Shown: positions 16,892-48,964 of the stretch, in pieces
How the letters are laid out: every line of letters starts with the position of its first letter
How positions within the stretch are numbered: the first letter of the stretch is position 1
NCBI RefSeq assembly: GCF_000380505.1
Contig: NZ_AQYH01000006.1
Span: forward strand, 186,001-250,000
Direction of reading: 5' to 3'
DNA: 64,000 nucleotides
Source: Kaistia granuli DSM 23481
Lineage (GTDB): Bacteria; Pseudomonadota; Alphaproteobacteria; Rhizobiales; Kaistiaceae
The notes under the pieces: model-generated
What the model was told of the DNA's origin: nothing
Database searches by the model: none
The model's input: only the letters and a program-made list of their open reading frames with translations
Program-made: the position numbers and the translations under genes

Positions 16892-17926
16892 ATGAAGAAA
16901 TCCGACCAGCCGCGCCGCGCCACGCTTGCCGACATTGCCAAACACGCCGGTGTATCGCGCAGCCTCGCCTCGCTGGCGATCCGCGGCGAAGGCGCTGTGC
17001 GGCCGGAAACGCGCGAGCGGATCGTCGCCGCCGCGGCGGAACTGAACTACCAGCCCAACATGCATGCACGCTCGCTGGCGAGCGCCGACGCCGCCTATCT
17101 CGGCGTCGTCGTCGGCCAGATCGAGAACGGCCTGCAGGCCGAGATCGCCAAGACCGCCAGCCTGGTCGCCCGCGAGCAGGGCTACAGCGTGCTGCTGTCG
17201 ATTGACGCCGACACGGATACGGACGCCGAAAACGCCATCCGCACCCTACTCGCCCACCGCGTCTCCGGCATCCTGCTGATCGGCGCGCCCTACGAGAAGA
17301 AGACGATCGCCCGCGTCGCGGAGTGGATCCCCGTCGTCTATGTCGGCCGCCTGCTCAAAGTGGTGAATGTCGACAGCGTCACCACCGACGACGTCACCGG
17401 CGGCATGATGGCGGTCGAGCATCTCGTCTCCCTCGGCCATCGCCGCATCGCCCATATCGACGGCGGCGCCTCGCCCGGCGCCGAGCGGCGGCGCGACGGC
17501 TATCGCGCCGCGATGCAGAAGCACGGGCTGGAGCGCGAGATCCGCATTCTCGACGGCGCCTATACGATCGACGCCGGCGCCGAAGCGGCGCGGCGGATCC
17601 TCGACGAGGCCGCGCCGCGCCCAACCGCCGTCTTCGCCTGCAACGACATGACGGCGATCGGCCTGATCAACGAATGCATGAAGAGCGGTATCTCCATTCC
17701 GGGCGGCCTCTCCGTCGTCGGCTATGACGACGTCACGCTCGCCGGCACCGAGACCCTGTCGCTAACCACGATCCATCAGTCGGCGCGCGATCTCGCCACG
17801 GCCGGCGTCGCCGCCATGATCGAGCGACTCAACGCCCCCGATGCGCCGGTGAGCAAGATCCTGGTGCCACCGCGCCTGGTGCCCCGGCGCTCGACCCGCC
17901 TCGCCTCGGTCGTCAGCGCCGCCTGA
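16892..17926 (+). CDS. LacI-family transcriptional regulator
   Basis: 344 residues. The HTH reads ATLADIAKHAGVSRSLASLA followed by AAAELNYQPN and MHARSLAS (hinge). The periplasmic-binding-like effector domain contains YLGVVVGQIENGLQAEI, VSGILLIGAPYEKK, GHRRIAHIDGG and FACNDMTAIGLINECMKSGI. Such regulators repress sugar operons until the sugar binds. The transporter operon begins 211 nt downstream on the same strand behind a perfect 18-bp palindrome, its likely operator. The start at 16892 gives the shortest natural N-terminus (MKKSDQPRRATL); its ribosome site is weak. Confidence 0.9.
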   Translation: MKKSDQPRRATLADIAKHAGVSRSLASLAIRGEGAVRPETRERIVAAAAELNYQPNMHARSLASADAAYLGVVVGQIENGLQAEIAKTASLVAREQGYSVLLSIDADTDTDAENAIRTLLAHRVSGILLIGAPYEKKTIARVAEWIPVVYVGRLLKVVNVDSVTTDDVTGGMMAVEHLVSLGHRRIAHIDGGASPGAERRRDGYRAAMQKHGLEREIRILDGAYTIDAGAEAARRILDEAAPRPTAVFACNDMTAIGLINECMKSGISIPGGLSVVGYDDVTLAGTETLSLTTIHQSARDLATAGVAAMIERLNAPDAPVSKILVPPRLVPRRSTRLASVVSAA

Positions 17927-18018: not shown

Positions 18019-18071
18019 TTGACAAGCCCGGCCGCATCCGGTGAGATCACATCTATTGGAGCGCTCCAATA
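18019..18071 (+). promoter_or_regulatory. promoter and LacI-type operator of operon B
   Basis: TTGACA at 18019-18024 is a perfect -35 box, with a weak -10 (TGAGAT, 18042-18047) 17 nt on. The perfect 18-bp palindrome TATTGGAGC-GCTCCAATA at 18054-18071 has the central GC and even symmetry of LacI-family operators. It lies at the expected transcription start, so a bound repressor would block initiation. The regulator gene is immediately upstream. Confidence 0.8.
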
Positions 18072-18137: not shown

Positions 18138-19214
18138 ATGGTCGCCATCCGGATCACCGGCGTCACCAAGAGCTTTGGCGAAGTGCCCGTGCTGCGCGGC
18201 ATCGATCTCGAGATCGGCCATTCCGAATTTGTCGTCTTCGTCGGCCCGTCCGGTTGCGGCAAGTCCACCCTGCTGCGCGTTATCGCCGGCCTCGAACAGG
18301 CGACTTCCGGCGACATCCACTTCGACGACCGCCGGATCACCGATGTGGCGCCGGCAAAGCGCGGCGTCGCCATGGTGTTCCAGTCCTACGCGCTCTATCC
18401 GCACATGACGGTCGCCGAGAACATGACGATGAGCCTGCGGCTCGCCGGCGTGCCGAAGCCGGAACGTCGTCGCCGGGCCGAAGAGGTGGCGAAGATGCTG
18501 CAGCTGACGCCGCTGCTCGACCGCAAGCCGGCGGCGCTTTCCGGCGGCCAGCGCCAGCGCGTTGCCATCGGCCGAGCCATCGTGCGCCAGCCGGACGTGT
18601 TCCTATTCGACGAGCCGCTGTCGAATCTCGACGCCGCACTCCGGGTCGAGACCCGCGTCGGCATCACCAAGCTGCACCGCACGCTCGGCAACACCATGAT
18701 CTACGTCACACACGACCAGGTCGAGGCGATGACCATGGCCGACCGCATCGTCATCCTCGACCAGGGCCGCGTTGCCCAGGTCGGCACGCCGCTGGAGCTC
18801 TATCGTCGCCCGGCCAACGCCTTCGTCGCCGGCTTCCTCGGCTCGCCGAAGATGAACTTCATCAAGGCCGACGAGATCTCGCGCAGCGGCAGCTCGATCC
18901 GCCTCAAGCTCGCCAGCGGTTCCGACATCGAGGTCAACGCCGCCGCGACCGACAAGGTGGCGTTGTTCGGCATTCGACCGGAGCATCTCACAGTCGCCAA
19001 TGAAGGTCCGATCGCCGGCACCGTCGCCGCCGTCGAGCACCTCGGCAGCGAAACGCTGATTTATGTCGAGACGAGCGCCGACACGCTGATCGTCAAGGCG
19101 GGCGAGAACGCCACCACGCAGCCGGGCGACCGCGTGAATCTGCGGCCCGAGCCGAACGCCATCCATCTTTTCGCCGCCGACGGACGTTCCGTCGCCGGCG
19201 CGCCGAACCACTGA
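18138..19214 (+). CDS. CUT1 sugar ABC transporter ATP-binding protein (UgpC/MalK type)
   Basis: 358 residues. Walker A GPSGCGKST (about residues 37-45), Q-loop FQSYALYPHMTV, signature LSGGQRQRVAIGRA, Walker B VFLFDEPLSNLDA, switch His in VTHDQVEAMT, then the C-terminal OB-type (TOBE) regulatory domain from about residue 240. It energises the permease pair at 20751-22438. GGGGA precedes the ATG at 18138. MalK-type ATPases of this class can be shared, so this one could also serve the ATPase-less CUT1 system at 41232-44300 (inference). Confidence 0.93.
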   Translation: MVAIRITGVTKSFGEVPVLRGIDLEIGHSEFVVFVGPSGCGKSTLLRVIAGLEQATSGDIHFDDRRITDVAPAKRGVAMVFQSYALYPHMTVAENMTMSLRLAGVPKPERRRRAEEVAKMLQLTPLLDRKPAALSGGQRQRVAIGRAIVRQPDVFLFDEPLSNLDAALRVETRVGITKLHRTLGNTMIYVTHDQVEAMTMADRIVILDQGRVAQVGTPLELYRRPANAFVAGFLGSPKMNFIKADEISRSGSSIRLKLASGSDIEVNAAATDKVALFGIRPEHLTVANEGPIAGTVAAVEHLGSETLIYVETSADTLIVKAGENATTQPGDRVNLRPEPNAIHLFAADGRSVAGAPNH

Positions 19215-19298: not shown

Positions 19299-20675
19299 AT
19301 GCTGAAAAAGCTTCTGACAGGCGGCTCCGCCGCGCTCGTCGCCGGATTGCTCGCCTCTGCGGCGCCGGCCCAGGCCGAGACGACGATCAATGTCGTCGGC
19401 TTCGGCGCCGGCTTTGCCTGGGCCGATCTGTTCGGTCCCTCGGGCACCGAGAAGACCCAGGCGCTGCTCGACTTCGAGAAGAAGGAAGGCATCGTCATCA
19501 ACATGGAATATGCCGACGAGGACGTGGCGCGCCAGAAGGTGCTGCTCGATCTCGTCAACGGCACCGGCAACTACGATCTCGTCATGCTCGGCAGCGACGG
19601 CGCCGTGCAGACTTATTCCGCCGCCGGCTATCTCGAGCCCCTCGACGGCTATGCCGACAAGGCGACCGACTATTTCGACGCCAAGAAGGTCTACGCCCCC
19701 TTCCTCGAAGCCAACCGCGTCGACGGCCAGCTCTGGGGCCTGCCCTACTACTCGTTCGGCGCCGGCGTCCTCTACCGCAAGGACATCTTCGACAAATACG
19801 GCATCACCAGCTTCCCGAAGACCACCGAGGAGCTCGAGAAGGCTCTGCAGACGGTCAAGGACGGCCTCGCCAAGGACGGCATCACCGACGTCTATCCGCT
19901 GACCATGCGCGGCGCGCCGGGCGAAGAGCCGTCGCTCGACCTGACCGGCTTCGTCTATGCCTATGCTGGCGATTCCGCCTGGTTCGAGGGCGGCGCCGAC
20001 ACGCCGGCCAAGATCAAGGAAACCGGCGCCAAGCCCGATTTCACCGGCAAGTTCAAGCCCGGCTTCGATACCTTCGTGCGCTGGTCGAAGGAGTTCGGCC
20101 CGCCCGGCATCGCGACCCACACCTGGGTCGACATGATGAACCTCTATGCCCAGGGCAAGGCCGTCGTGCTGATGCCGTCGGCGATCAACGGCTTCGCCGG
20201 TCTCGGCAGCTCCGAAGTCGCCGCCGTCAAGGAGAACAGCGTCTTCGCCCCGTCGCCCGTCGGCCCGTCCGGCAAGGCGATCCAGAGCTTCTGGACCTTC
20301 TCGGTCGGCATGAGCAAATACGCCAAGGACAAGGAGGCCGCCTACAAGGCGCTCGCCTTCCTGACCAGCCAGCCCGTGATGGAAAACTTCGCGACCCAGA
20401 TCGGCTGGCCCTACACGACCTATCCGGAAATCATGCATGGTCCGATCCTGACCGGTAAGTGGCCGAAGGAGACGCTCGACGCGATCGAGGCCTCGTTCAA
20501 CGACGCCGAACCGCATTACTTCCCCTACATCCCCGAGCTGACCGAGTTCATGGACAAGATCGGCACCGCCGCGTCGGAATCGATCTCCGGCTCGACCACG
20601 ACCGACGAGGCGCTGAACAACCTCCAGGTCTGGGCGACCGACCGCATGGAGCGGGCCGGCTACTACAAGAAGTAA
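19299..20675 (+). CDS. CUT1 sugar ABC transporter substrate-binding protein
   Basis: 458 residues, solute-binding family 1. A Sec signal peptide (KKLLTGG, hydrophobic core, APAQA then ET) ends near residue 27. The mature protein contains VVGFGAGFAWADLFGPSG, YDLVMLGSDGAVQTYSAAGY, LWGLPYYSFGAGVLYRKDIF and YAQGKAVVLMPSAINGF. It captures an unidentified sugar or polyol in the periplasm. GGGAGAT precedes the ATG. A strong hairpin follows the stop, before the first permease gene. Confidence 0.93.
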   Translation: MLKKLLTGGSAALVAGLLASAAPAQAETTINVVGFGAGFAWADLFGPSGTEKTQALLDFEKKEGIVINMEYADEDVARQKVLLDLVNGTGNYDLVMLGSDGAVQTYSAAGYLEPLDGYADKATDYFDAKKVYAPFLEANRVDGQLWGLPYYSFGAGVLYRKDIFDKYGITSFPKTTEELEKALQTVKDGLAKDGITDVYPLTMRGAPGEEPSLDLTGFVYAYAGDSAWFEGGADTPAKIKETGAKPDFTGKFKPGFDTFVRWSKEFGPPGIATHTWVDMMNLYAQGKAVVLMPSAINGFAGLGSSEVAAVKENSVFAPSPVGPSGKAIQSFWTFSVGMSKYAKDKEAAYKALAFLTSQPVMENFATQIGWPYTTYPEIMHGPILTGKWPKETLDAIEASFNDAEPHYFPYIPELTEFMDKIGTAASESISGSTTTDEALNNLQVWATDRMERAGYYKK

Positions 20676-20750: not shown

Positions 20751-21605
20751 ATGTTGCAAGACTGGCGCTTTTGGTTCCTGGCTCCGATGGTGCTCGCGCT
20801 CGGAATCGTGGTGCTGTTCCCATCGGGCTATCTCGTCTGGATGAGCGTGACGCACTGGATCGTCACCGATCCCAGCGTCTATTTCGATGGCGTCCAGAAC
20901 TTCGCGACCCTGTTCAGGTCGGCGAGCTTCGCCTCGGCCGTGCAGGTGACGGCGCTCTATCTCGTGCTGTCGACGATCCTGATGCTGATCCTCGCCTTCG
21001 GACTGGCGCTGGCACTCTCCGGTCCCAATTCGCCAGGCTTCATCCGCGCCATCGTCGTCATGCCGCTGGTCATTCCGCCCGTCGTTGCCGGCTTCACCTG
21101 GCGCTTCCTGATGAATGGCGAGATGGGTTTTCTCGGCGCCTTCGTGCTGCCGAATGTCGGCATCACAACCAACATGCTGGCCAACCCGACCGGTGCGCTG
21201 ATCTCGATCGTCATCGCCGACGTCTGGAGCCGCACGCCCTTCATGTTCCTGATCTTCCTGGCGGCGCTGCAGGCGATCCCGCGCGACCACTACGAGGCGA
21301 TCCGCCTCGATGGCGCCAGCGCGCTGCAGGAATTCTGGCTTGTGACGCTGCCGATGATGCGCAGCGCCGTCGTCATCGCCCTCCTGTTCCGCGTCATCGA
21401 CGCGCTCAACACCTTCGAGCTGATCTACGTGATGACCAAGGGCGGCCCCGGCCGTTCGACCCAGACGCTGTCGCTGCTCGGCTGGAAGACCGCCTTCCAG
21501 GGCTTCGACTTCGGCGGCGCCGCCGCCCTCGGCGTCGTCATGCTGGTCGTCACGACCGTCTGCGCCTCGATCGTCTATCGCCGCTTCCTGAGGATGCCGT
21601 CATGA
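20751..21605 (+). CDS. CUT1 sugar ABC transporter permease (MalF type)
   Basis: 284 residues with six membrane spans, the first at FWFLAPMVLALGIVVLFPSG. The EAA loop that contacts the ATPase is YEAIRLDGASALQEFWLVTL-P. The late segment YVMTKGGPGRSTQTLSLLGW is characteristic of MalF/UgpA permeases. It pairs with the next permease. The stop overlaps the next start by 4 nt (ATGA), indicating translational coupling. Confidence 0.93.
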   Translation: MLQDWRFWFLAPMVLALGIVVLFPSGYLVWMSVTHWIVTDPSVYFDGVQNFATLFRSASFASAVQVTALYLVLSTILMLILAFGLALALSGPNSPGFIRAIVVMPLVIPPVVAGFTWRFLMNGEMGFLGAFVLPNVGITTNMLANPTGALISIVIADVWSRTPFMFLIFLAALQAIPRDHYEAIRLDGASALQEFWLVTLPMMRSAVVIALLFRVIDALNTFELIYVMTKGGPGRSTQTLSLLGWKTAFQGFDFGGAAALGVVMLVVTTVCASIVYRRFLRMPS

Positions 21606-22438
21606 GCCATTCGGGTCCCGCCGGACAGAATCCGTTCGCCCGCCTCGGCCGCCTGGCCTTCCTGGGCGCGACGCTGGTCTTCGTGCTGCTGCCGATCGCC
21701 TGGCTGGCGCTTGGTTCGCTGAAGACCCGCAACGAGGCCTTGGCGTTGCCGCCCAAGCTGATCTTCACGCCGGACTTCTCCGCCTACCAGAAGATCGTCG
21801 CGCAGGGCTTCCTCGGTGCTTTCGGCAACAGCCTGACCATCGCCCTCAGCAATGTCGTGCTGACGCTTCTGCTCGGTACGCCGGCCGCCTATGCGCTGAC
21901 CCGCATCCGCGGCAAGGTGCAGGACAACCTCTCCTTCTGGGTGTTGTCGATCCGCATGGCGCCGCTCTTCGCCGTCATCCTGCCGCTCTACGTGCTGTTC
22001 AAGTCGATCGGCCTGCTCGACACGCGCTTCGCCGTCTCGCTGGCGCATCTCACCATCACGCTGCCGCTCGCGGTCTGGATGCTGATGACCTATTTCCGCA
22101 GCGTGCCGGAGGATCTCGACCAGGCGGCGATGCTGGACGGCGCCACGCATCTGCAGATCCTGCTGCTCGTCATCGTGCCGATCGCCCGGCCGATGCTGGC
22201 CTCGGTCGCGATCGTCGTCTTCATCCTGTCGTGGAATGAGTTCCTGCTCGCCTTCATCCTGACCTCGCGCGGCTCGCAGACCGTGCCGGTCGCCGTGGCG
22301 TCGCTCGCCGGCACCATGTCGTTCGACTGGCCGCTGATCGCCGCCGTCTCGGTCTGCTCGATGATCCCGGCTCTGCTCTTCGTCGGCTTCGCCCAGCGCC
22401 ATATCGTCTCCGGCCTCGCCTCGGGAGCGGTGAAATGA
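21602..22438 (+). CDS. CUT1 sugar ABC transporter permease (MalG type)
   Basis: 278 residues with six membrane spans. The first span is at FLGATLVFVLLPIAWLALGS. The EAA loop is LDQAAMLDGATHLQILLLVI-VP and the FILSWNEFLLAFILTS segment is typical of MalG/UgpE. It forms the channel together with the preceding permease. Start ATG 21602 overlaps the upstream stop, and its own stop overlaps the SDR start by 4 nt. A longer frame beginning inside the previous gene is an artefact of overlap. Confidence 0.93.
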   Translation: MSHSGPAGQNPFARLGRLAFLGATLVFVLLPIAWLALGSLKTRNEALALPPKLIFTPDFSAYQKIVAQGFLGAFGNSLTIALSNVVLTLLLGTPAAYALTRIRGKVQDNLSFWVLSIRMAPLFAVILPLYVLFKSIGLLDTRFAVSLAHLTITLPLAVWMLMTYFRSVPEDLDQAAMLDGATHLQILLLVIVPIARPMLASVAIVVFILSWNEFLLAFILTSRGSQTVPVAVASLAGTMSFDWPLIAAVSVCSMIPALLFVGFAQRHIVSGLASGAVK

Positions 22439-23169
22439 GCCGCCGTCACATCGTCATCACCGGAGCTGCGCGCGGCATAGGCCGGGCGCTCGCCGAACGC
22501 TTCCTCGCCGAAGGCTGGCTCGTCACCGGCATCGACCTCGGCGGCGCGGCGCTCGCCGATTCGACCTATCGCCACGCCGTCGCCGACATCACGGACGAAC
22601 CCGCTTTCGACGCGGCGCTGGAAGCGGCATGGGACCGGACCCCGGTCTCCGCCGTCATCGGCAACGCGGCGCTGACGGACCTCGCCCATCGCGCCGCGAT
22701 CGACCTGCCCTATGCCGACTGGCAGCGCATCCTGCGCGTCAATGTCGATGGCGCGTTCCTGACCGGCCGGCTCGCCGGCCGCCGCATGGCGGCGCAGGGC
22801 CACGGCAACATCGTCTTCGTCACGTCCTCGCTCGCCTTCCTCGACCAGGCCAAGGCCGAGGACGCGCCCTATTGCACGTCGAAGAGCGGCGTCGAGATGC
22901 TGGCCCGCGTGCTGGCGCTCGAACTCGGCCCGAACGGTGTCAACGTCAACACGCTGTTCCCCTCGGTGAAAATCGATACCGGCTTCTTCGCGCACCTTAC
23001 CGAGACCGAGCGGGCCGAGCTGGCGCCGCCTTCCATCCTCGACCCGGCCGCCCTCTGGCTGGCCGGCCGCGCGCCCGGCTACCGCGGCCCGGTCTCGATC
23101 GACCAGGAACGCTACGACGCCGATCCCGCCTATCGGGCGAGCCTCACCCAGGAGGATAAAGCCGCATGA
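22435..23169 (+). CDS. SDR-family oxidoreductase (operon B)
   Basis: 244 residues. Cofactor motif ITGAARGIGRALAERFL, then the N-A-G position as GNAALTDLAHR, catalytic Ser in FVTSSLAFLD and the pair Tyr/Lys in APYCTSKSGVEML. After the core the C-terminal part is shortened and lacks the usual LxVDGG ending, reading GPVSIDQERYDADPAY instead. Coupled by 4-nt overlaps on both sides to transport and hydrolase genes, so it probably oxidises the imported polyol, sugar or aldonate. The substrate is unknown. Confidence 0.9.
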   Translation: MSRRHIVITGAARGIGRALAERFLAEGWLVTGIDLGGAALADSTYRHAVADITDEPAFDAALEAAWDRTPVSAVIGNAALTDLAHRAAIDLPYADWQRILRVNVDGAFLTGRLAGRRMAAQGHGNIVFVTSSLAFLDQAKAEDAPYCTSKSGVEMLARVLALELGPNGVNVNTLFPSVKIDTGFFAHLTETERAELAPPSILDPAALWLAGRAPGYRGPVSIDQERYDADPAYRASLTQEDKAA

Positions 23170-23930
23170 GCGAACCGATGTTCCTCGACGCCGGCCGCGC
23201 CACGCTGCCGGAAATCGAACGCTTCATCGAGCGCGTGCCCTTCGCCATCCTGCCCGTCGGCTCGACCGAGCAGCATGGCCCGCACCTGCCGACCAACACC
23301 GACACGCTGATCGCCGAACGGATGGCACTCGAGATCGCCAAGAAGAGCTGTGGGCTGGTCCTGCCGGCGGTGCCGCTCGGCTATGCCTGGGTCTGGCGCG
23401 ACGTGCCGGCGACGCTGACGCTGCGCTTCGACACCTATATGCGCATGATCCGCGACGTCGCCGAGAGCCTCGACCGCTGGGGCATCCACGCCGTCTACGT
23501 CGTCTCGGGCCATGGCTCCAACCCGCAGCCGATCAAGCATGCGCTGCGCGAGCTGATCCACGACCAGCTCGACATCAAGATGCTCTACGGCATGTATGGC
23601 GGCCTCAAGGAGATGCTCGCCGAGGCCGACAGCAAGCCCTGGCACGACGACATCCACGCCGAGGAAATCGAGACTTCACTGATGCTGGCGATCGCGCCGG
23701 AACTGGTCCACATGGACCGCGCTGCGGCCGACTATCCGCCGGTGCCGCCCGACTACGGCAAGTCGGAGCTCTCGATGGGAAATTTCATGCGTACCGGTGT
23801 GTTCGGCGACCCGACATCGGCCACCGCCGAAAAGGGTGAGCGCTGGATTTCGCTTGCCGCCGACCGTTCCGCCACCCTCTGGCAGGGCTTTCTCGCCCGG
23901 CACGGCCTGATCCCAGGAGAAGACAAATGA
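23166..23930 (+). CDS. creatininase-family amidohydrolase
   Basis: 254 residues. The metal-binding pattern of the family is intact: Glu35 and His37 in STEQHGPHLPTNTD with Asp46, His116 in VVSGHGSNPQ, and the HAEEIETS motif (Glu167). Creatininase-fold enzymes open cyclic amides or hydrolyse formamides and related N-glycosidic or peptide bonds with two divalent metals. Here it is embedded between an SDR and a phosphotriesterase-family gene in a sugar-transport operon, so the true substrate is probably a cyclic or amide sugar derivative, not creatinine. Overlaps of 4 nt on both sides. Confidence 0.88.
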   Translation: MSEPMFLDAGRATLPEIERFIERVPFAILPVGSTEQHGPHLPTNTDTLIAERMALEIAKKSCGLVLPAVPLGYAWVWRDVPATLTLRFDTYMRMIRDVAESLDRWGIHAVYVVSGHGSNPQPIKHALRELIHDQLDIKMLYGMYGGLKEMLAEADSKPWHDDIHAEEIETSLMLAIAPELVHMDRAAADYPPVPPDYGKSELSMGNFMRTGVFGDPTSATAEKGERWISLAADRSATLWQGFLARHGLIPGEDK

Positions 23931-24853
23931 CTGAAATCATGACCGTCAACGGGCCGATCACGCCCGACCAGCTCGGCATCACCGATTATCACGAGCATCT
24001 CTATGTCGAGCCGCCGACCTGGCTGCATAGCAAGGACCCCGACTTCGCGCTCGACTCGGTTGAAAAGTCGGCCGAAGAGCTGCAGAGCTTCGCCAAGGCC
24101 GGCGGCCGCACCCTCTGCGAACTGACCGCCGTCGATTTCGGCCGTAACGTCGGCAAGATCAAGGCGATCGCCGACAAGGTGCCCGAGGTCAACGTCATCA
24201 TGACCGCCGGCTACAACCGGCCGCATTACATGGGCCGCTGGGGCCATGCCGTCGCTGAAGCCGACATGATCCGCGACACGGTGCGCGACCTAACGGTCGG
24301 CATCGACGGCACCGACATCAAGGCCGGCATCATCAAGTGCGGCACGGAATACAATAATTTCAACGAGATGGGTCAGAAGCTCGTCCGTGTCGCCGCCGCC
24401 GCCTATCGCGAGACCGGCCGACCGGTGATCACCCACACCACCGCCGGCACGATGGGCTACGAGCAGTCGGACCTTCTGATCGAGCAGGGCGTCGACGCGC
24501 ACCGCATCGCGCTCAGCCACATGGACCGCAATCCCGACGCCCCCGAACACAAGCGCATCGCGGCGATGGGCGTCTATATTGGCTATGACAGCTTCGGCAA
24601 GTCGAAATACGGCCCGGAAAGCCGCCGCGTCGCGCTGCTGCGCGACATGATCGATAGCGGCTACGGCCAGCGCCTGCTGATCGGTAACGATCTCGGCCGG
24701 CCGAGCTACTGGCGCGCCTATGGCGGCGGCCCCGGCCTCGACTTCGTGCTTACCTCGTTCCGCGCCCGCTTGCTGCAGGAAGGCTTCACCGAGGCCGAGC
24801 TGACCATGCTGTTCATCGACAATCCCCGTCGCTTTTTCGCCGGCGAGCGCTGA
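23927..24853 (+). CDS. phosphotriesterase-family metal-dependent hydrolase
   Basis: 308 residues, amidohydrolase-superfamily TIM barrel. Ligands expected for the binuclear site are present: His22 and His24 (YHEHLY), Lys136 in GIIKCG (carboxylated Lys position), His169 in VITHTTAG, His197 in LSHMDRN and Asp254 in IGNDLGR. Members include lactonases and sugar-phosphate or sugar-lactone hydrolases; phosphotriester activity is rare and usually incidental. In this operon a lactonase acting after the SDR is a reasonable inference. The start overlaps the creatininase stop by 4 nt. Confidence 0.9.
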   Translation: MTEIMTVNGPITPDQLGITDYHEHLYVEPPTWLHSKDPDFALDSVEKSAEELQSFAKAGGRTLCELTAVDFGRNVGKIKAIADKVPEVNVIMTAGYNRPHYMGRWGHAVAEADMIRDTVRDLTVGIDGTDIKAGIIKCGTEYNNFNEMGQKLVRVAAAAYRETGRPVITHTTAGTMGYEQSDLLIEQGVDAHRIALSHMDRNPDAPEHKRIAAMGVYIGYDSFGKSKYGPESRRVALLRDMIDSGYGQRLLIGNDLGRPSYWRAYGGGPGLDFVLTSFRARLLQEGFTEAELTMLFIDNPRRFFAGER

Positions 24854-24859
24854 TCCGAC

Positions 24860-26353
24860 ATGCAGGCAACGCTTGGCATCGATATCGGGACCTCGGCGGT
24901 CAAGGTGGTGGTCGTCGGTGGCGACGGGTCCGTTTTGGCCCGCGCCAGCCGGCCCTATCCGACCCGCACGCCGGCCTCCGGCTTTGTCGAGCAATCGGCC
25001 GAAGACTGGTGGGCGGCGACCTGCGCCGCCTGCCGCGATGCGCTCGGGCAGGCTGACGGCACGACAATCGCCGGTGTCGGCCTGTCGGGGCAGTTGAACG
25101 GCTTCGTGCTGCTCGACGCGGAGGACCGCATCCTCGGTGAGGCGATCATCTGGCTCGATACCCGCGCGGTGGCGGAGGCACGGGATCTCGACCAGCGCCT
25201 CGGCGACCTCCTGCGCCAGCGCGCCGCCACCGAACTGAATCCGATCGCCGTGCTTTCCAAGCTCGCCTGGCTGGCGAGGCACGAGCCCGACCGGCTCGCC
25301 CGGACGCGACGCGTCCTGCTGGTCAAGGATTTCATTCTCTGGAAACTGACCGGCGTCGAGGCGACCGACCCTTCGGATGGCTCCGCCACCGGCCTGATGG
25401 ATGTCGAGACATCGAGCTGGATCGCCGAACTGGCGGACGCCGCCGGCTTCGATCCGAAGATCCTGCCGGCGATCCTGCCCGCCTGCGCCATCGCCGGCGC
25501 GGTCACGGAAGACGCCAGCGCAGCAACCGGCCTCGCAGCCGGGACGCCGGTGGTCCCCGGTGGCGGCGACGTCGCGGCCTTGGCCGTCGGCTGTGGCGTG
25601 GTGGAACCGGGCGTGCTCGGCGTCACCCTCGGCACCGCCGGCCATGTCGTGCTTTCGGAAGCCGGCCTGCCAGCCGCCCGTACGCATCGGGGCTTCTGGC
25701 ACATCAGCCACGCCGAACCGGGCCTCTCGATCTGGCTTGGTCTCGTCATGAGCGGCGGCCTCAGCCTCGCCTGGCTGCACCGGCTGCTGTCGTCCTGGCG
25801 CGACACACCGTTGAAGTTCGAGGACATGGTCGCCTTCAGCACCGAGGTTCCGCCCGGCGCGCGCGGCCTTGCCTTCGCGCCCTTCCTCGAAGGCGCCGCG
25901 ACCCCCTACTCCGCCCCGGAAGCGCGCGCAGCCTTCTCCGGCCTCTCCTCATCACATGGCGCCGCCGAGATGGTCGTCGCCGTTATGGAGGGCGTCGCCT
26001 TCAACGTCCGCCAGTCGGTCGAGATGTTCCAGGCGCTCGGTGGCCATGTCGACGAGATCCGCGTCGCCGAGGGCGGGGCCCGCGTCGACCGCTGGTGCCA
26101 GATCCTGGCCGACGTGCTGCAGCGGCCGCTGGTGCGCATCGAGGAACTCGACGCCTCCAGCGTCGGTGCGGCGCTGATGGCACAGGTCGGTCTCGGCGCC
26201 GGCACACTCTCCGACGTGGTCGGGCGCACCGTCGCGTTCGGCCAGCGCTTCGAGCCGGATCCCGGCCGCGCCCCGTCCTATGCCGAAGCCTACCGCCGCT
26301 ATCTCGACCTCGCCGGCCATACCGTCGGAATCCCGCCGCCACAGTCGGCCTAG
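24860..26353 (+). CDS. FGGY-family carbohydrate kinase (xylulokinase-like)
   Basis: 497 residues, the length of xylulokinase. N-terminal ATP-fold motif GIDIGTSAVKVVVVGGDG; catalytic-base Asp in VPGGGDVAALAVG; adenosine-site segment VEPGVLGVTLGTAG. Two substrate-site fingerprints of XylB differ: SGQMHG is SGQLNG (residues 76-81), and the usual PYLSGERTPH is PFLEGAATPY. Xylulose is therefore doubtful; another ketose, polyol or aldonate is likely. It starts 6 nt after the phosphotriesterase stop and would commit the product of that chain by phosphorylation. Confidence 0.87.
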   Translation: MQATLGIDIGTSAVKVVVVGGDGSVLARASRPYPTRTPASGFVEQSAEDWWAATCAACRDALGQADGTTIAGVGLSGQLNGFVLLDAEDRILGEAIIWLDTRAVAEARDLDQRLGDLLRQRAATELNPIAVLSKLAWLARHEPDRLARTRRVLLVKDFILWKLTGVEATDPSDGSATGLMDVETSSWIAELADAAGFDPKILPAILPACAIAGAVTEDASAATGLAAGTPVVPGGGDVAALAVGCGVVEPGVLGVTLGTAGHVVLSEAGLPAARTHRGFWHISHAEPGLSIWLGLVMSGGLSLAWLHRLLSSWRDTPLKFEDMVAFSTEVPPGARGLAFAPFLEGAATPYSAPEARAAFSGLSSSHGAAEMVVAVMEGVAFNVRQSVEMFQALGGHVDEIRVAEGGARVDRWCQILADVLQRPLVRIEELDASSVGAALMAQVGLGAGTLSDVVGRTVAFGQRFEPDPGRAPSYAEAYRRYLDLAGHTVGIPPPQSA

Positions 26354-26451
26354 ACCGCCCCAAACCCATCCGCGCCGACCGGCGGGGCCCTGCCCTCGCC
26401 GGAACGATGCCTCACGCCGACACCCCGTCGCGCCAAGACAAGGAAATCTCG

Positions 26452-26802
26452 ATGACCATCACCCGGATCGAACCCGGCCCGCGCATGAGCAACGCCGTCA
26501 TCCACAACGGCGTCGTCTATCTCTCCGGCCTGGTCGGACGCGACGGCGAGGATGTCGCGTCGCAGACGCGCGCCGCACTCGCCGATGTCGATCGCCTGCT
26601 GGCGCTCGCCGGCACCAGCAAGTCGCATCTGATCTCGGCGACGATCTGGCTCGCCGACATCCGCGATTTCCAGGCGATGAACGCCGTCTGGGACGCCTGG
26701 GTCGATCCGGCCGCCACGCCCGCCCGCGCCACCGGCGAGGCCCGCCTTGCCAAGGACAAGTACCGCGTCGAGGTGATGATCACCGCCGCCCTGCCCGGCT
26801 GA
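26452..26802 (+). CDS. RidA family protein
   Basis: 116 residues, the standard RidA/YjgF length. Segments: AVIHNGVVYLSGLVG, SQTRAALADVDRLLALAG, ATIWLADIRDFQAMNAVWDA, and ARATGEARLAKDKYRVEVMI-TAALPG, with the conserved Arg of the ligand pocket in PARATGEA. RidA hydrolyses reactive enamine/imine intermediates. Its presence at the end of this operon hints that an amine or imine arises in the pathway. AAGGAA lies 7 nt before ATG 26452; an upstream ATG at 26407 is less well supported. Confidence 0.9.
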   Translation: MTITRIEPGPRMSNAVIHNGVVYLSGLVGRDGEDVASQTRAALADVDRLLALAGTSKSHLISATIWLADIRDFQAMNAVWDAWVDPAATPARATGEARLAKDKYRVEVMITAALPG

Positions 26803-32909: not shown

Positions 32910-32941
32910 TCAATAATTTACATTATTGACCGATTTATTGA
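32910..32941. promoter_or_regulatory. candidate ROK operator array
   Basis: TCAATAAT (32910-32917) and ATTATTGA (32922-32929) are perfect 8-bp inverted arms 4 nt apart. A direct copy TTTATTGA follows at 32934-32941, about one helical turn on. AT-rich dyads of this kind are bound by ROK repressors (NagC/Mlc/XylR). The site lies in the gap between the ROK gene and the AraB-like kinase gene and could control both. Confidence 0.6.
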
Positions 32942-33075
32942 AAATATCCTATTTAATAGGGATAGCCACGAACCGCATCGAAGCGATCGATGCGGGGTCG
33001 ACCGCCGATCTCCAGCGAGAGTGCCCCCATGTTTCAGCACCGTGTCCCGAGGGACGAGACGAGCATGGTGGGCCG

Positions 33076-34662
33076 ATGACGCGCTCCTTTCTCATCGGGC
33101 TCGATTACGGTTCGGAATCGGCGCGCGGCGTGCTGATCGACGCCGCCAGCGGACATCAGGTCGAAAGCCATGTTCACGCCTATCGCCACGGGATCCTGAC
33201 GCGGACGCTGCCCGACGGCACACCGCTTTCGCGCGGCTGGGCTCTGCAGGTCGCGGCGGACTATCTCGAGGCAGCGGCGGATATTCTGACCGTGCTCGGC
33301 GGCGGGCGGCAGATCCTCTCCATCGGCGCCGGCTTCACCGCGAGCTCGCCCCTGCCGGCGACGGAAACGGGCACGCCGCTGTCGGAGATCCATCCGGGAA
33401 ATCCGCATGCCTATGTGAAGCTCTGGAAGCATCGCGCCGCACAGCCCTATGCCGACGCCATCAACAAGACAGGCGGCGGATTCCTGGCCAATTTCGGCGG
33501 CAAGCTCTCCGGCGAATGGCTGCTGGCCAAGGCGGCGCAGATCGAGGCCGAGGCGCCGGATATCTGGGCCGAGACGGGTCGCTTCATCGAGGGCGGCGAC
33601 TGGCTGGTCTGGCAACTGACCGGCATCGAGGCGCGCGGCCTCGGCCTGGCCGCCTACAAGGCGCAGTATTCCACCGAGGCCGGCTATCCCTCAAGCGTGG
33701 TGGCGGGGCTTGCGCCAAAACTGGCGCCGCCGCTCGCGGCCGGTGCCACCGCCGGCGCGCTGACCGAAAGCTGGCGTCAAAAGACTGGCATCGAAGGCCC
33801 GGCCATTGTCAGCGTTGCGACGATCGATTCCCATGTCGTGCTGCCGGCAATCCACGCCGTCTCGAGCGGTTGCCTCGTCGGTGCGCTCGGAACCTCGGCC
33901 GCTTATCTCCTGCTCAGCGACGAATTCCGCCCCCTCCCCGCCGGCATCGAGGGCGTGGCGAAAGACGGCGCTGTGCGCGGATTGTGGTGCTACGAGGCCG
34001 GCCAGGCGAGCTTCGGTGACACGCTGAGCTGGTTCGTGAAGACATTTCCACGCGGCGCCAGCGAAGCGGAGAGTTTTGCAGCCTACAATCGCGAGGCGGC
34101 GGCACTCGCCCCGGCCGCCAACTCCCTCCTCGCGCTCGACTGGTGGAACGGAAACCGGGTGCCGTTCGCCGATTCCGAGCTGACCGGGCTGCTGCTCGGC
34201 CTCTCGATGGAGACGACCGCCGTCGACATCTACCGCGCGCTGATGGAGGCGCTCTGTCACGGCGCCCGCAACGTTGTCGGCCGCTTCGAGGCCGCCGGCT
34301 TCGCGATCGAGCGGATCCTGATGACGAGCGGCCTCGCCCGCAACAATCCGGAGCTGGTGGCGATCCTGGCCGACATCCTCGAACGCGTCATCGAGGTGCC
34401 GGAGATCGAGCATCCGACCGCCGTCGGCGCGGCGATCCATGGCGCGGTCGCCGCCGGCATTGTCGCGAGCTTCCAGGACGGCGCGGCGCGGTTCGGCGCG
34501 CGCGCGTTCAAGACCTACGAGCCTCGCGCGGCGAACGCGGCGGCGCATCGCGCGCTCTATCAGCACTACCAGAACCTCAGCGCCGATGCCGTCTTGCACG
34601 CGGCGATGCACGATCTCGGCCGCCTCGCGTCGACGCGCGCCGGCGGGGCTTCGGATCGCTGA
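33076..34662 (+). CDS. FGGY-family carbohydrate kinase, ribulokinase (AraB)-like
   Basis: 528 residues, between xylulokinase and AraB in length. AraB-like segments: IGLDYGSESARGVLIDAASG, HPGNPHAYVKLWKHRAAQ, FIEGGDWLVWQLTG and LALDWWNGNRVPF. In AraB the segment GVDFTSST carries an Asp; here it reads GAGFTASSPLP, so the substrate site differs. It phosphorylates a ketopentose or related sugar after uptake. I prefer ATG 33076 (GGTGGG upstream) to the in-frame start at 32926, which adds 50 non-homologous residues. It lies between the ROK regulator and the CUT2 genes. Confidence 0.87.
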   Translation: MTRSFLIGLDYGSESARGVLIDAASGHQVESHVHAYRHGILTRTLPDGTPLSRGWALQVAADYLEAAADILTVLGGGRQILSIGAGFTASSPLPATETGTPLSEIHPGNPHAYVKLWKHRAAQPYADAINKTGGGFLANFGGKLSGEWLLAKAAQIEAEAPDIWAETGRFIEGGDWLVWQLTGIEARGLGLAAYKAQYSTEAGYPSSVVAGLAPKLAPPLAAGATAGALTESWRQKTGIEGPAIVSVATIDSHVVLPAIHAVSSGCLVGALGTSAAYLLLSDEFRPLPAGIEGVAKDGAVRGLWCYEAGQASFGDTLSWFVKTFPRGASEAESFAAYNREAAALAPAANSLLALDWWNGNRVPFADSELTGLLLGLSMETTAVDIYRALMEALCHGARNVVGRFEAAGFAIERILMTSGLARNNPELVAILADILERVIEVPEIEHPTAVGAAIHGAVAAGIVASFQDGAARFGARAFKTYEPRAANAAAHRALYQHYQNLSADAVLHAAMHDLGRLASTRAGGASDR

Positions 34663-46525: not shown

Positions 46526-47677
46526 CTACCAGTTCGTCACTGAGCCATCGTTCCGCTTCAGGTGCGGCGCTTCCCAGAACTTGAAGCTCTGCTTCTGGAT
46601 CAGTTCCTCGTTGACCTCGACCCCCAGTCCGGGCGCGTCCAGAACGGGATAATGGGCCTTCTCGATGCGAGGCTGCACCGGGAAGAACTCGGAATTGTCG
46701 AAGCCAAGCTGCTCCGCCGTCGAGGTGCGGGTCTCAAGCCATGAGAAGTTCGGCACCGCCGCCGCGAAATGCACCGTCGCCGCCGTGCAGATCGGCCCGA
46801 GCGGATTGTGCGGCATCATGTCGACATAGTGCGCCTCGCTCCAGCCGGCGACCTTCATCGACTCGGTCAGGCCGCCGACATTGCAGACATCTATCCGGTT
46901 GAACTGATGGATGTCGCGCTCGATGAACGGCAGGAATTGCCATTTCGAGGCGAATTCCTCGCCGATAGCGAAGGGCACGTCGACCATCCGGCGCAGCGCC
47001 TCATAGGCCTCCGGCGTCTCGTCGCGGATCGGCTCCTCGAGGAAATCGAGCGTTCCCGACGGCATCTTCTGGCAGAAGCTCGCGGCTTCCGCGACCGACA
47101 GGCGGTGATGGTAGTCGATGCCGAGCACCACTTCCTCGCCCAGTTCCTCGCGCGCCTTGACGCACCATTTCGCGGTTGCCGCAATGTGTTCGCGCGGCTC
47201 ATAGATCGAGCTGTCGCCATGGCCGGACGGCGACAGGCGCATGGCGTTCCAGCCCGCCTCGATCAGCCCCCTCGCCTGCTCGATCATTTCCGGACCGGGC
47301 GGCGCCGAGGTCGTCGCGAAGGTCGGGATCCGGTCGCGCTGCTTGCCGCCCAGGAGCTGATAGACCGGCACGCCGAGCGCCTTGCCGAGAATGTCGTAGA
47401 GGGCAATGTCGATCGCCGAGATCGCCGCCTGCAGCACGCGGCCGCCCTCAAAATACTGGCTGCGATACATTTCCTGCCAGAGAGCGCCGATCCGCCGGGG
47501 ATCGCGGCCGATCAGGAATTCGCGATAGTGCTCGAGCGCCCCGACGACAGCCTTCTCGCGTCCGGACAGGCCGCTTTCGCCCCATCCGAAGATGCCCTCG
47601 TCGGTCTCGACCTTGACGATCAGCTGGTTACGCGTGCCCACCCAGACCGGATAGGGACGAATGGCGGTGATTTTCAT
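46526..47677 (-). CDS. enolase-superfamily sugar-acid dehydratase (galactonate-dehydratase-like)
   Basis: 383 residues, mandelate racemase/muconate lactonizing subgroup. Metal ligands by pattern: Asp188 in GIDYHH (with His190), Glu214 in DFLEEP, Glu240 in AIGEEF; general acid/base His290 in MMPHNPLGP and Glu315 in SWLETR. PHNPLGP is shared with D-galactonate dehydratase (DgoD). It dehydrates a sugar acid to a 2-keto-3-deoxy acid in the cytosol. It is the last gene of operon E, so substrates could include galactonate, gluconate or another aldonate. Confidence 0.87.
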   Translation of the reverse strand: MKITAIRPYPVWVGTRNQLIVKVETDEGIFGWGESGLSGREKAVVGALEHYREFLIGRDPRRIGALWQEMYRSQYFEGGRVLQAAISAIDIALYDILGKALGVPVYQLLGGKQRDRIPTFATTSAPPGPEMIEQARGLIEAGWNAMRLSPSGHGDSSIYEPREHIAATAKWCVKAREELGEEVVLGIDYHHRLSVAEAASFCQKMPSGTLDFLEEPIRDETPEAYEALRRMVDVPFAIGEEFASKWQFLPFIERDIHQFNRIDVCNVGGLTESMKVAGWSEAHYVDMMPHNPLGPICTAATVHFAAAVPNFSWLETRTSTAEQLGFDNSEFFPVQPRIEKAHYPVLDAPGLGVEVNEELIQKQSFKFWEAPHLKRNDGSVTNW

Positions 47678-47752
47678 GATCAGGATATCCGGACCGGGAG
47701 ATGAACGGGGCGGCCCGGCTCGGCGCCGGACCGCTGCGAACGCAATGTATGG

Positions 47753-48964
47753 CTACCAGTGCCAGATCGTGCCGTCCTCGAGCCGGTTGACCGGCAGATA
47801 GGCCCGTTCGTACGGATATTTGGCGGCCAGCGGCTCGTCGATATCGACGCCATGGCCGGGGGCCTCGCCCGGATGGAGATAGCCGCCATCCTGTTTCCAG
47901 GCATGCGGGAAGACCTCGTGCATCAGCGGCGTGTAGCCGGAGAATTCCTGGATGCCGAAATTGGGCACCCAGAGATCGATATGCACATTCGCGCCCATCG
48001 CGACCGGCGAGACGTCCATCGGGCCATGGCAGGCGGTGCGGACGTGGTAGATCGAGGCGAAGTCGAAGATGCGCCGCAAGCCTGTGACACCGCCGGCATG
48101 CACCGAGGTGGCGCGGATATAGTCGATCAGCTGTTCCTCGATCAGCAGCTTCGCATCCCAGATCGTGTTGAAGACCTCGCCGAGCGCGATCGGCTGCGTC
48201 GTGTGCTGGCGGATCAGGCGATAACCTTCCTGCAGTTCGGCAGGAACCGGATCCTCCAGCCAGAACAGCCGGAACGGCTCGAGATCCTTGCCGAGACGCG
48301 CCGCCTCGATCGGCGTCAGCCGGTGATGCGTGTCGTGCAGGAGGTGAAGGTCGTCGCCATAGCTGTCGCGCAGGCGGGCGAACAGCTTCGGGATGTGGAC
48401 CATGTATTTGGAGGTGGACCACACCTCCTCGTTCGGCAGCGCATCGACCATGCCGCCCTTGCCCTGCTCGGACCCCTTGCCCGTCCCGTAGATGGCGGGA
48501 AGGCCGGGAATTCCGACCTGGGCGCGGATGGCGACATAGCCCTCCTCGCGCTTCCTGCCGACGGCGTCGACGGCCTCCTCGATGCTCATGCCCTGGGCAT
48601 GCGAATAGACCATCACCTTCTCGCGCGAGGCGCCGCCGAGCAGCTGGTAGAGCGGCATGTTCGCCGCCTTGCCCTTGATGTCCCAGAGCGCCATGTCGAC
48701 GGCCGAGATCGCGGCCATGGTGATCGGTCCGCGCCGCCAGTAGGCCCCGCGATAGAGATACTGCCAGATGTCCTCGATCTGCGCCGGATCCCGCCCGATC
48801 AGCAGCGGCGCGACGTGATCCTGAAGGTAGCTGACGACGGCGAGTTCACGGCCGTTCACCGTGCCGTCGCCGATGCCGTAGAGGCCTTCGTCGGTGAAGA
48901 TCTTGACCGTGACGAAGTTGCGCCCGGGCGAACAGACAATGACTTTGACGTCGGTGATTTTCAT
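47753..48964 (-). CDS. manD: D-mannonate dehydratase, enolase superfamily (ManD/RspA)
   Basis: 403 residues, the ManD length. Tyr159 in GLPAIYGTG, Asp211-x-His213 in LLHDTHHRL, Glu237 in FWLEDPV, Glu263 in ALGEVFN and His313 in TACHGPMD correspond to the ManD active site. It converts D-mannonate to 2-keto-3-deoxy-D-gluconate with Mg2+. The residue after HG is Pro315, a position I recall as discriminating efficient from low-activity members. UxuA, a non-homologous enzyme of the same reaction, is encoded two genes upstream in the same transcript. Confidence 0.88.

Follow-up and report, generated by a model that had tools for sequence, protein, structure and literature searches.

The 64,000-nucleotide stretch of the Kaistia granuli DSM 23481 genome analyzed here (the window) carries what we call a sugar catabolic operon, one in which a creatininase-fold enzyme has a role so far without assignment. 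The catabolic block, at positions 22435 to 26802 behind a sugar ATP-binding cassette (ABC) transporter, encodes a short-chain dehydrogenase/reductase (SDR), the creatininase-fold enzyme (CREAT), a phosphotriesterase-fold enzyme (PTE), an FGGY carbohydrate kinase, and a RidA-family protein. We find that CREAT and the PTE recur together in several phyla and that the PTE looks, from its residues, built for a phosphorylated substrate, and we put the chances as about even that an Entner-Doudoroff-like route degrades the compound imported through the operon, which would be a sugar, a polyol, or similar to an aldonolactone. Such a pathway is concrete and testable, given the cross-phylum core and the phosphate site of the PTE.

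A PTE-creatininase core in several phyla

A scan with a CREAT alignment, with one genome per species, gave at least 588 relatives, from which the best 80 loci were kept; flanks of up to 10 kb per side were fetched, and neighbors were called by tblastn at E ≤ 1e-6. Presence and absence were also taken from tblastn, scripted gene calling being rough, and the reference set includes the cassette proteins and so favors neighbors of that kind. When these best 80 of at least 588 relatives were split by rank into the 12 closest (L056 to L067, 40 to 81% identical to CREAT) and the remaining 68, a PTE was found beside 11 of the 12 and none of the 68 (p = 1.1e-12), a KDPG/KDGP-aldolase beside 9 and none (p = 9.5e-10), and the IIC component of an Ula-type phosphotransferase system (PTS) beside 6 and none (p = 3e-6). 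FGGY kinases (4/12 versus 1/68, p = 0.0014) and RidA (2/12 versus 0/68, p = 0.02) followed at lower frequency, and SIS proteins were not enriched (1/12 versus 0/68, p = 0.15). A creatininase tree of 100 rows, built by a quick method with SH-aLRT supports and no bootstrap, has a 28-row clade (SH-aLRT 93, not starred) that takes in all 20 PTE-neighbored rows and 8 without a PTE. The gene-neighborhood check proposed in the initial annotation thus shows the creatininase and PTE families to be co-conserved; the set is no local accident, and the SDR, RidA, and the MalF/MalG permeases lie outside the wide core.

The window CREAT belongs to an 18-row clade (clade 1, support 96) with hosts in the Pseudomonadota, Bacillota (Sporosarcina, Vagococcus, Ornithinibacillus, Lentibacillus, Hungatella, and Listeria), Coprothermobacterota, Poribacteria, and Armatimonadota. 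The gene content of these loci varies: in the Poribacteria, a zinc-type dehydrogenase gene takes the place of the SDR gene directly before CREAT, and the Armatimonadota locus (L057) has an SDR, CREAT, and an aldolase but no PTE. In two further loci, from Thalassovita (L063) and Maritimibacter (L064), a single creatininase is surrounded by pairs of PTEs and FGGY-type kinases, perhaps serving two stereoisomers.

Clade 1 comprises 18 unique loci (L038 and L056, being one and the same, were counted once), of which 7, mostly from Bacillota, have an Ula-type PTS but lack an FGGY kinase and 9 have an FGGY kinase but lack such a PTS; the remaining 2 (L057 and L066), both at contig edges, have neither. 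Comparison of the versions with a kinase and those with a PTS can help to show where in the pathway phosphorylation occurs. Roseobacteraceae loci with a kinase nest with Bacillota loci with a PTS in the tree (support 93), and in clade 2 the locus of Alicyclobacillus dauci combines an ABC transporter with a xylulokinase-like kinase, so a PTS rule fails for the Bacillota overall. In five cassettes (L059, L060, L061, L065, and L067), PTS genes, PTE, KDPG-family aldolase, and CREAT follow one another in this order so tightly that no further enzyme would fit between them. The K-[LIV]-F-P motif of KDPG-family aldolases holds the catalytic Lys, which is kept in all 10 cassette aldolases examined.

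The PTE of the window has a complete binuclear metal site (H22, H24, K137, H170, H198, and D255) and has R201, K227, Y228, R258, and Y261 in the columns of the phosphate site. The phosphate ligands of the phospho-furanose lactonase MS53_0025 are reportedly Lys217, Lys244, Tyr245, Arg275, and Tyr278; positions 219, 246, 247, 277, and 280 of PDB entry 3msr are K, K, Y, R, and Y, in agreement with this numbering at an offset of 2, and the window enzyme differs by a single exchange of K to R. All 22 PTEs beside a cassette CREAT keep four or five of the five phosphate residues, compared to none to two in 7 of the 11 other PTEs (two in Enterococcus faecium; none, none, and two in three Rhizobiaceae; one in Streptomyces; none in genome G127; and two in Escherichia coli php). 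The E. faecium PTE is encoded on a plasmid next to a DgoD-like gene; with only two residues kept, it makes a weak case for sugar-acid dehydratases and CREAT excluding each other beside phospho-lactonase-type PTEs. With these residues conserved in the cassette PTEs, the enzyme seems suited to a phosphorylated substrate, and phosphorylation should therefore come ahead of lactone opening. The order given in the initial annotation (oxidation, ring opening, and then phosphorylation) is probably wrong for the PTE, given its phosphate site and the replacement of the kinase by a PTS in 7 of the 18 loci. The window PTE falls below the cut-offs of the curated models for phospho-furanose lactonase (NF045706, 162.6 bits against 630) and organophosphate hydrolase (NF041153, 77.1 against 500), and in a class-wide sample, window-type PTEs were found at E ≤ 1e-60 in 2 of 385 genomes, one of them K. 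granuli itself. The PTE of the other genome, G127, was set aside, being 30% identical to the window enzyme, with no phosphate residue kept and no other reference protein in its 12 kb. Two Bacteroidota loci near GH28 or GH88 genes (L147 and L148) combine an SDR, a ROK kinase, an SIS protein, and an FAD oxidoreductase with a PTE keeping four or three of the five residues, and no creatininase is annotated there.

The fold of CREAT is clear, as the predicted model has a pLDDT of 95.1 and all 26 Foldseek matches in the PDB at E ≤ 0.001 belong to the creatininase family. Residues E35, H37, D46, H116, H164, and E169 are invariant in the 18 clade-1 rows and in all 72 outgroup rows. Glu122 is a metal ligand in creatininase, and E122Q mutants appear in the PDB titles of creatininase structures; this position is S, A, or G in all 20 aligned rows of the cassette clade and Glu in just 5 of the 72 outgroup rows. 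The clade is marked in the window protein by Y73, W75, V76, W77, K124, and Y197, with the Y-x-W-V-W motif in 18/18 clade-1 rows, compared to His at position 77 in 62/72 outgroup rows. Position 124, on the helix after H116, is Lys throughout clade 1 (18/18), K or R throughout clade 2 (6/6), and A or S in the four rows of a sister clade linked to adenine deaminase, which hints at a substrate that is anionic and may be phosphorylated. Among curated NCBIfam models, creatininase itself scores best (TIGR04448, 120.1 bits); mycofactocin MftE (TIGR03964) scores 114.4 and IolN (NF041098) 70.3 (E = 1.4e-19). The respective cut-offs are 235, 172, and 245, and CREAT is therefore none of these as far as tested.

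The kinase scores marginally below the cut-off for xylulokinase (TIGR01312, 375 bits against 380.25) and has the motifs SGQLNG and PFLEGAATPY. Xylulokinases have SGQMHG, and GQ[LM]NG is found in 9/9 kinases paired with a clade-1 CREAT versus 0/4 other kinases; this supports the view of the initial annotation that the enzyme lacks the xylulokinase motifs, and it is no typical xylulokinase. For the SDR, the 25 best NCBIfam models all fall short of their own cut-offs, and its best solved relative is 4ibo, titled "gluconate dehydrogenase" (78.5 bits). The PAR-motif Arg of RidA matches an Arg in each of the three solved structures compared (3kjj, 9bk1, and 9bjv), and a conserved Arg has a role in RidA enamine/imine deaminases; the protein scores 50.1 bits against the subfamily model TIGR00004, below the cut-off of 106.25.

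The operon and its closest relatives

The genes between 16892 and 26802 run from regulator and operator through the transporter to the enzymes in the order of Table 1, and the open reading frames and family assignments support one catabolic operon behind one sugar transporter, as initially annotated. Four 4-nucleotide overlaps exist as claimed, but only three are among the genes then named (MalG/SDR, SDR/CREAT, and CREAT/PTE), the fourth being MalF/MalG. The kinase gene starts 6 nucleotides after the PTE stop and RidA comes last, as described, after a gap of 98 nucleotides.

Table 1. Features of the K. granuli operon, by position in the window
Feature	Position	Strand	Family match or remark
LacI-family regulator	16892..17926	+	PF00356/PF13377
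Perfect palindromic putative operator TATTGGAGCGCTCCAATA	18054..18071	none	18 bp
UgpC/MalK-type ABC ATPase	18138..19214	+	NF008653, 460.7 bits (cut-off 432); alternative TTG start 18117
Extracellular sugar-binding protein	19299..20675	+	PF01547
MalF-type permease	20751..21605	+	PF00528
MalG-type permease	21602..22438	+	PF00528
SDR	22435..23169	+	PF00106, PF13561
Creatininase-fold hydrolase (CREAT), cassette-specific clade	23166..23930	+	PF02633, 219.4 bits (cut-off 31.3)
PTE, putative phospho-lactonase type	23927..24853	+	PF02126, 201 bits
FGGY carbohydrate kinase, SGQLNG motif	24860..26353	+	PF00370/PF02782
RidA-family protein	26452..26802	+	PF01042, 83.3 bits (cut-off 27.3)

The LacI gene with a perfect operator at the head of the operon was likewise confirmed. 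The palindrome lies just upstream of the transporter ATPase gene, whichever of its starts is used (ATG 18138 or TTG 18117), and with at most one mismatch, it occurs at a single place in the K. granuli genome, at one place each in the operon-bearing Kaistia genomes G010 and G004, and nowhere in the other 11 of the 14 genomes of the genus. We infer that the LacI protein binds and controls this single operator.

A search of 101 genomes with CREAT found a creatininase relative of some kind in 74 of them and, in 6, K. granuli included, one at 68% identity or more. The gene order of the operon recurs in five relatives, with identities of 66 to 97% for CREAT, 49 to 94% for the kinase, 66 to 99% for the binding protein, 85 to 96% for the PTE (three of the five), and 58 to 93% for the SDR (four of the five). 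The binding protein, MalF, MalG, CREAT, and the FGGY kinase are thus present in all six operon genomes, the SDR is present in five, and the PTE, LacI (upstream of the operon in G010, G015, and G004), and downstream RidA (own genome, G010, G015, and G004) are each present in four; a 45% relative of RidA lies near the operon in G014. The ABC ATPase is less constant: it is 97% identical in G010, a 56% relative lies near the operon in G014, G004 has just a 41% relative on the opposite strand beyond LacI, and G015 has no close one. The regulator is also exchanged, with a divergent SorC-like one (PF04198) in G014 and, by eye, a look-alike gene at the same place in G096. In G096, the kinase is followed by a DAO-type FAD oxidase and an aldolase of the DHDPS family, and the G014 locus includes acetoacetate-decarboxylase-like and hydroxyacid-dehydrogenase-like genes. 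The binding protein was tried and set aside as a guide to the substrate, as its best solved relatives (1eu8 and 4rya) are weak matches and its predicted model is poor (pLDDT 66.3).

Several further creatininase loci were seen in these genomes. On the other side of the operon, G096 (L039, 3984 to 4634) and G014 (L040, 15388 to 16041) have a second, very divergent creatininase-like gene, which stands beside the regulator look-alike in G096 and beside the SorC-type regulator and a RidA relative in G014. A second, distinct PTE-creatininase cassette is found in G003, G015, and G004 (L048, L049, and L050), with an RbsABC-type transporter, a GntR regulator, a divergent kinase of the FGGY family, and a protein related to one of 395 aa without clear family, and it resembles a plasmid cassette of A. 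dauci (L032). In other Kaistia genomes, members of the sister creatininase clade (L041, L042, L045, and L046) lie beside an RbsA-like ABC ATPase, and L042 also has an adenine-deaminase-like amidohydrolase, a PnrA-type binding protein, and an ABC permease, so this clade possibly serves purine-related catabolism. It was rejected as part of the same pathway on the purine-like context of L042, the sole locus with neighbors named, and the presence of a PTE in none of the four loci. Elsewhere in the window, an open reading frame at 32926 to 34662 resembles, by eye, another FGGY-type kinase and is a candidate only, and two genes at 46529 to 48964 are 29 to 32% identical to a DgoD-annotated dehydratase.

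Proposed pathway and competing explanations

In the route we propose, the ABC transporter, judged by its family, would import the compound and the SDR would oxidize it, with a lactone or keto compound as the probable product. The kinase, of a class that is clear and with a substrate suggested by context, would then phosphorylate it, and the PTE, which has both the phosphate and the metal sites, would open the phosphorylated lactone. CREAT would take this phosphorylated intermediate, an anion, and either serve as a second hydrolase or catalyze a dehydratase-like step, and a pyruvate-type aldolase of the KDPG family, which many cassettes elsewhere contain but this operon lacks, would yield pyruvate and a phospho-aldehyde. 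In the Bacillota clade-1 cassettes, the Ula-type PTS would stand in for import and phosphorylation, and the logic would run from a lactone phosphate through opening by the PTE to a 2-keto-3-deoxy-type acid formed by CREAT and then to aldol cleavage. Such a sequence from lactone phosphate to pyruvate is suggested by the packed PTS cassettes together with their phospho-lactonase-type PTE. Dehydration by CREAT would complete the stoichiometry, while amide hydrolysis would need a nitrogenous substrate. The broader proposal that this is a widespread Entner-Doudoroff-type pathway, in which the PTE is a phospho-lactonase and CREAT stands in for the sugar-acid dehydratase (or opens another ring) and so supplies a KDPG-family aldolase with a 2-keto-3-deoxy sugar phosphate, with the window holding its ABC/kinase version, is a tentative one that we regard as doubtful on present evidence.

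A number of observations weigh against the proposed route. Neither the SDR (1/12 closest loci versus 16/68, p = 0.44) nor MalFG (2/12 versus 5/68, p = 0.28) is enriched beside the CREAT clade. G004 has no SDR ortholog (the best match elsewhere is 42% over about 180 residues), and its MalG gene directly abuts CREAT; G014 and G096 have no PTE in the genome at E ≤ 1e-10, though transporter, SDR, CREAT, and kinase are kept. The five enzymes are therefore not rigidly co-conserved even nearby, and the idea that the set is tied to the MalFG transporter or the SDR has to be given up. High counts of phosphate residues are also found in PTEs without CREAT, namely, in Deinococcus (five of five), where the gene sits in an FGGY cassette with a kinase, an SDR, and an aldolase and no creatininase annotated nearby; in Mycoplasma, where the phospho-furanose lactonase (five of five) adjoins an Ula PTS and UlaD/E/F; and in two Bacteroidota with a ROK kinase (four and three). 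The phosphate site is associated more broadly with sugar-kinase or PTS surroundings than with CREAT. In the outgroup, CREAT position 124 is D, R, E, Q, or others, with R in 16/72 rows, and the split between PTS and kinase partly follows phylum and is therefore suggestive rather than independent evidence from 16 cases. We know of no precedent for a dehydrating creatininase-fold enzyme, and RidA plays no part in the scheme. Finally, a KDPG-type aldolase is absent from the window operon; the K. granuli genome has three PF01081 genes outside it, one of which is 52 to 53% identical to the cassette aldolases of Thalassovita and Maritimibacter, but none carries the operator, and their link to the operon is by inference. 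A search for the distant aldolase through an operator regulon was abandoned, as the genome has a single operator.

The strongest competing explanation, which we consider rather unlikely, is a nitrogenous sugar derivative (a lactam, amide, or amino sugar) in which CREAT would open a cyclic amide and RidA would hydrolyze an imine or enamine, with the kinase and PTE handling the sugar part. Creatininase-fold enzymes act on amides, and the top curated model for CREAT is that of creatininase. RidA follows the operon in three relatives, with the 45% relative near the operon of G014 and another beside the Thalassovita cassette, while G096 has the DAO-type oxidase and L042 of the sister subclade stands in the nitrogenous context described above. 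However, the operon has no aminotransferase or pyridoxal phosphate-dependent enzyme, nor is one annotated in the first Listeria PTS cassette (the other PTS cassettes are incompletely annotated), and the ascorbate-type PTS of 7/18 clade-1 loci belongs to a kind whose known substrates are sugar-like. RidA is the sole gene of the window operon hinting at nitrogen and stands by just 2 of the 12 closest loci, so the amide or amine that the initial annotation placed in the substrate is unnecessary for the core. The replacement of Glu122 in all 20 rows points the same way, albeit weakly, since Glu is rare in the outgroup too.

A carbocyclic substrate would have CREAT act like IolN, the 3-dehydro-scyllo-inosose hydrolase, in C-C cleavage of an inositol-like ring oxidized by the SDR. 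IolN is a creatininase-fold sugar enzyme with a significant match to CREAT, and the SDR gene immediately precedes that of CREAT, but the score is far below the cut-off, 0/61 genomes (own and relatives) have a protein above it, the operon has no other inositol gene, and the PTE and PTS contexts favor phospho-lactones, which makes this improbable. We give still less weight to a known sugar or polyol pathway (e.g., for xylitol or xylulose) with hitchhiking hydrolases, which seems very improbable. The near-threshold xylulokinase score and a binding protein distantly like a sorbitol-binding protein speak for it, but GQ[LM]NG replaces SGQMHG in 9/9 kinases, and the co-conservation of PTE and creatininase across phyla makes it unlikely that they are hitchhikers.

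Relation to known systems

The closest trace of such cassettes in the literature is a gene list in PMC2996996, where Listeria monocytogenes lmo1968 to lmo1973 appear as lineage genes, with no function given for the set in that list. There, lmo1968 is creatinine-amidohydrolase-like, lmo1969 is 2-keto-3-deoxygluconate-6-phosphate-aldolase-like, lmo1970 is PTE-like, lmo1971 and lmo1972 are "pentitol" PTS IIC and IIB, and lmo1973 is PTS IIA (PMC2996996). The cassette of Listeria NCTC7974 (L031) was matched to the genes on this list by gene order, not by sequence. Like the window, it has a clade-1 creatininase (41% identical), a PTE (42%), and a KDPG-aldolase-like stretch; unlike the window, it has a PTS and no kinase, RidA, or SDR, and the aldolase-like stretch has no annotated gene. 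The NCTC7974 sequences labeled "plasmid 3" and "plasmid 4" (L031 and L033) include rpsL, fusA, and zwf and look like mislabeled pieces of chromosome. Beyond this list, we found no description of a PTE-creatininase cassette pathway in the literature searched, which left most subscription journals uncovered, and to that extent the catabolic set is undescribed, as first proposed.

If our reading is true, a creatininase-fold clade named in databases after another reaction gains a role in sugar-phosphate metabolism, orphan PTS genes in the Bacillota, including genes long listed in Listeria, are explained, and a limited set of substrates and assays follows by which a new path into central metabolism could be established.

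The Mycoplasma phospho-furanose lactonase (NF045706; MS53_0025, PDB 3msr) shares conserved metal and phosphate sites with the window PTE (Lys217 corresponds to Arg201), but the window enzyme is 31% identical to the M. hyorhinis member and below the family cut-off, and the Mycoplasma cassette runs on to UlaD/E/F rather than to an aldolase of the KDPG kind. Creatininase (TIGR04448) has the fold of CREAT and equivalents of its six invariant residues, whereas CREAT is below the cut-off, has Glu122 replaced, and is marked by the W-x-W motif and K124. The classical Entner-Doudoroff pathway has the same logic as our proposal, in that the substrate is oxidized and phosphorylated and a lactone is opened to give a 2-keto-3-deoxy acid for aldol cleavage, but in the route proposed here, other families would carry out lactone opening and the step before the aldolase, and the aldolase would be encoded outside the operon.

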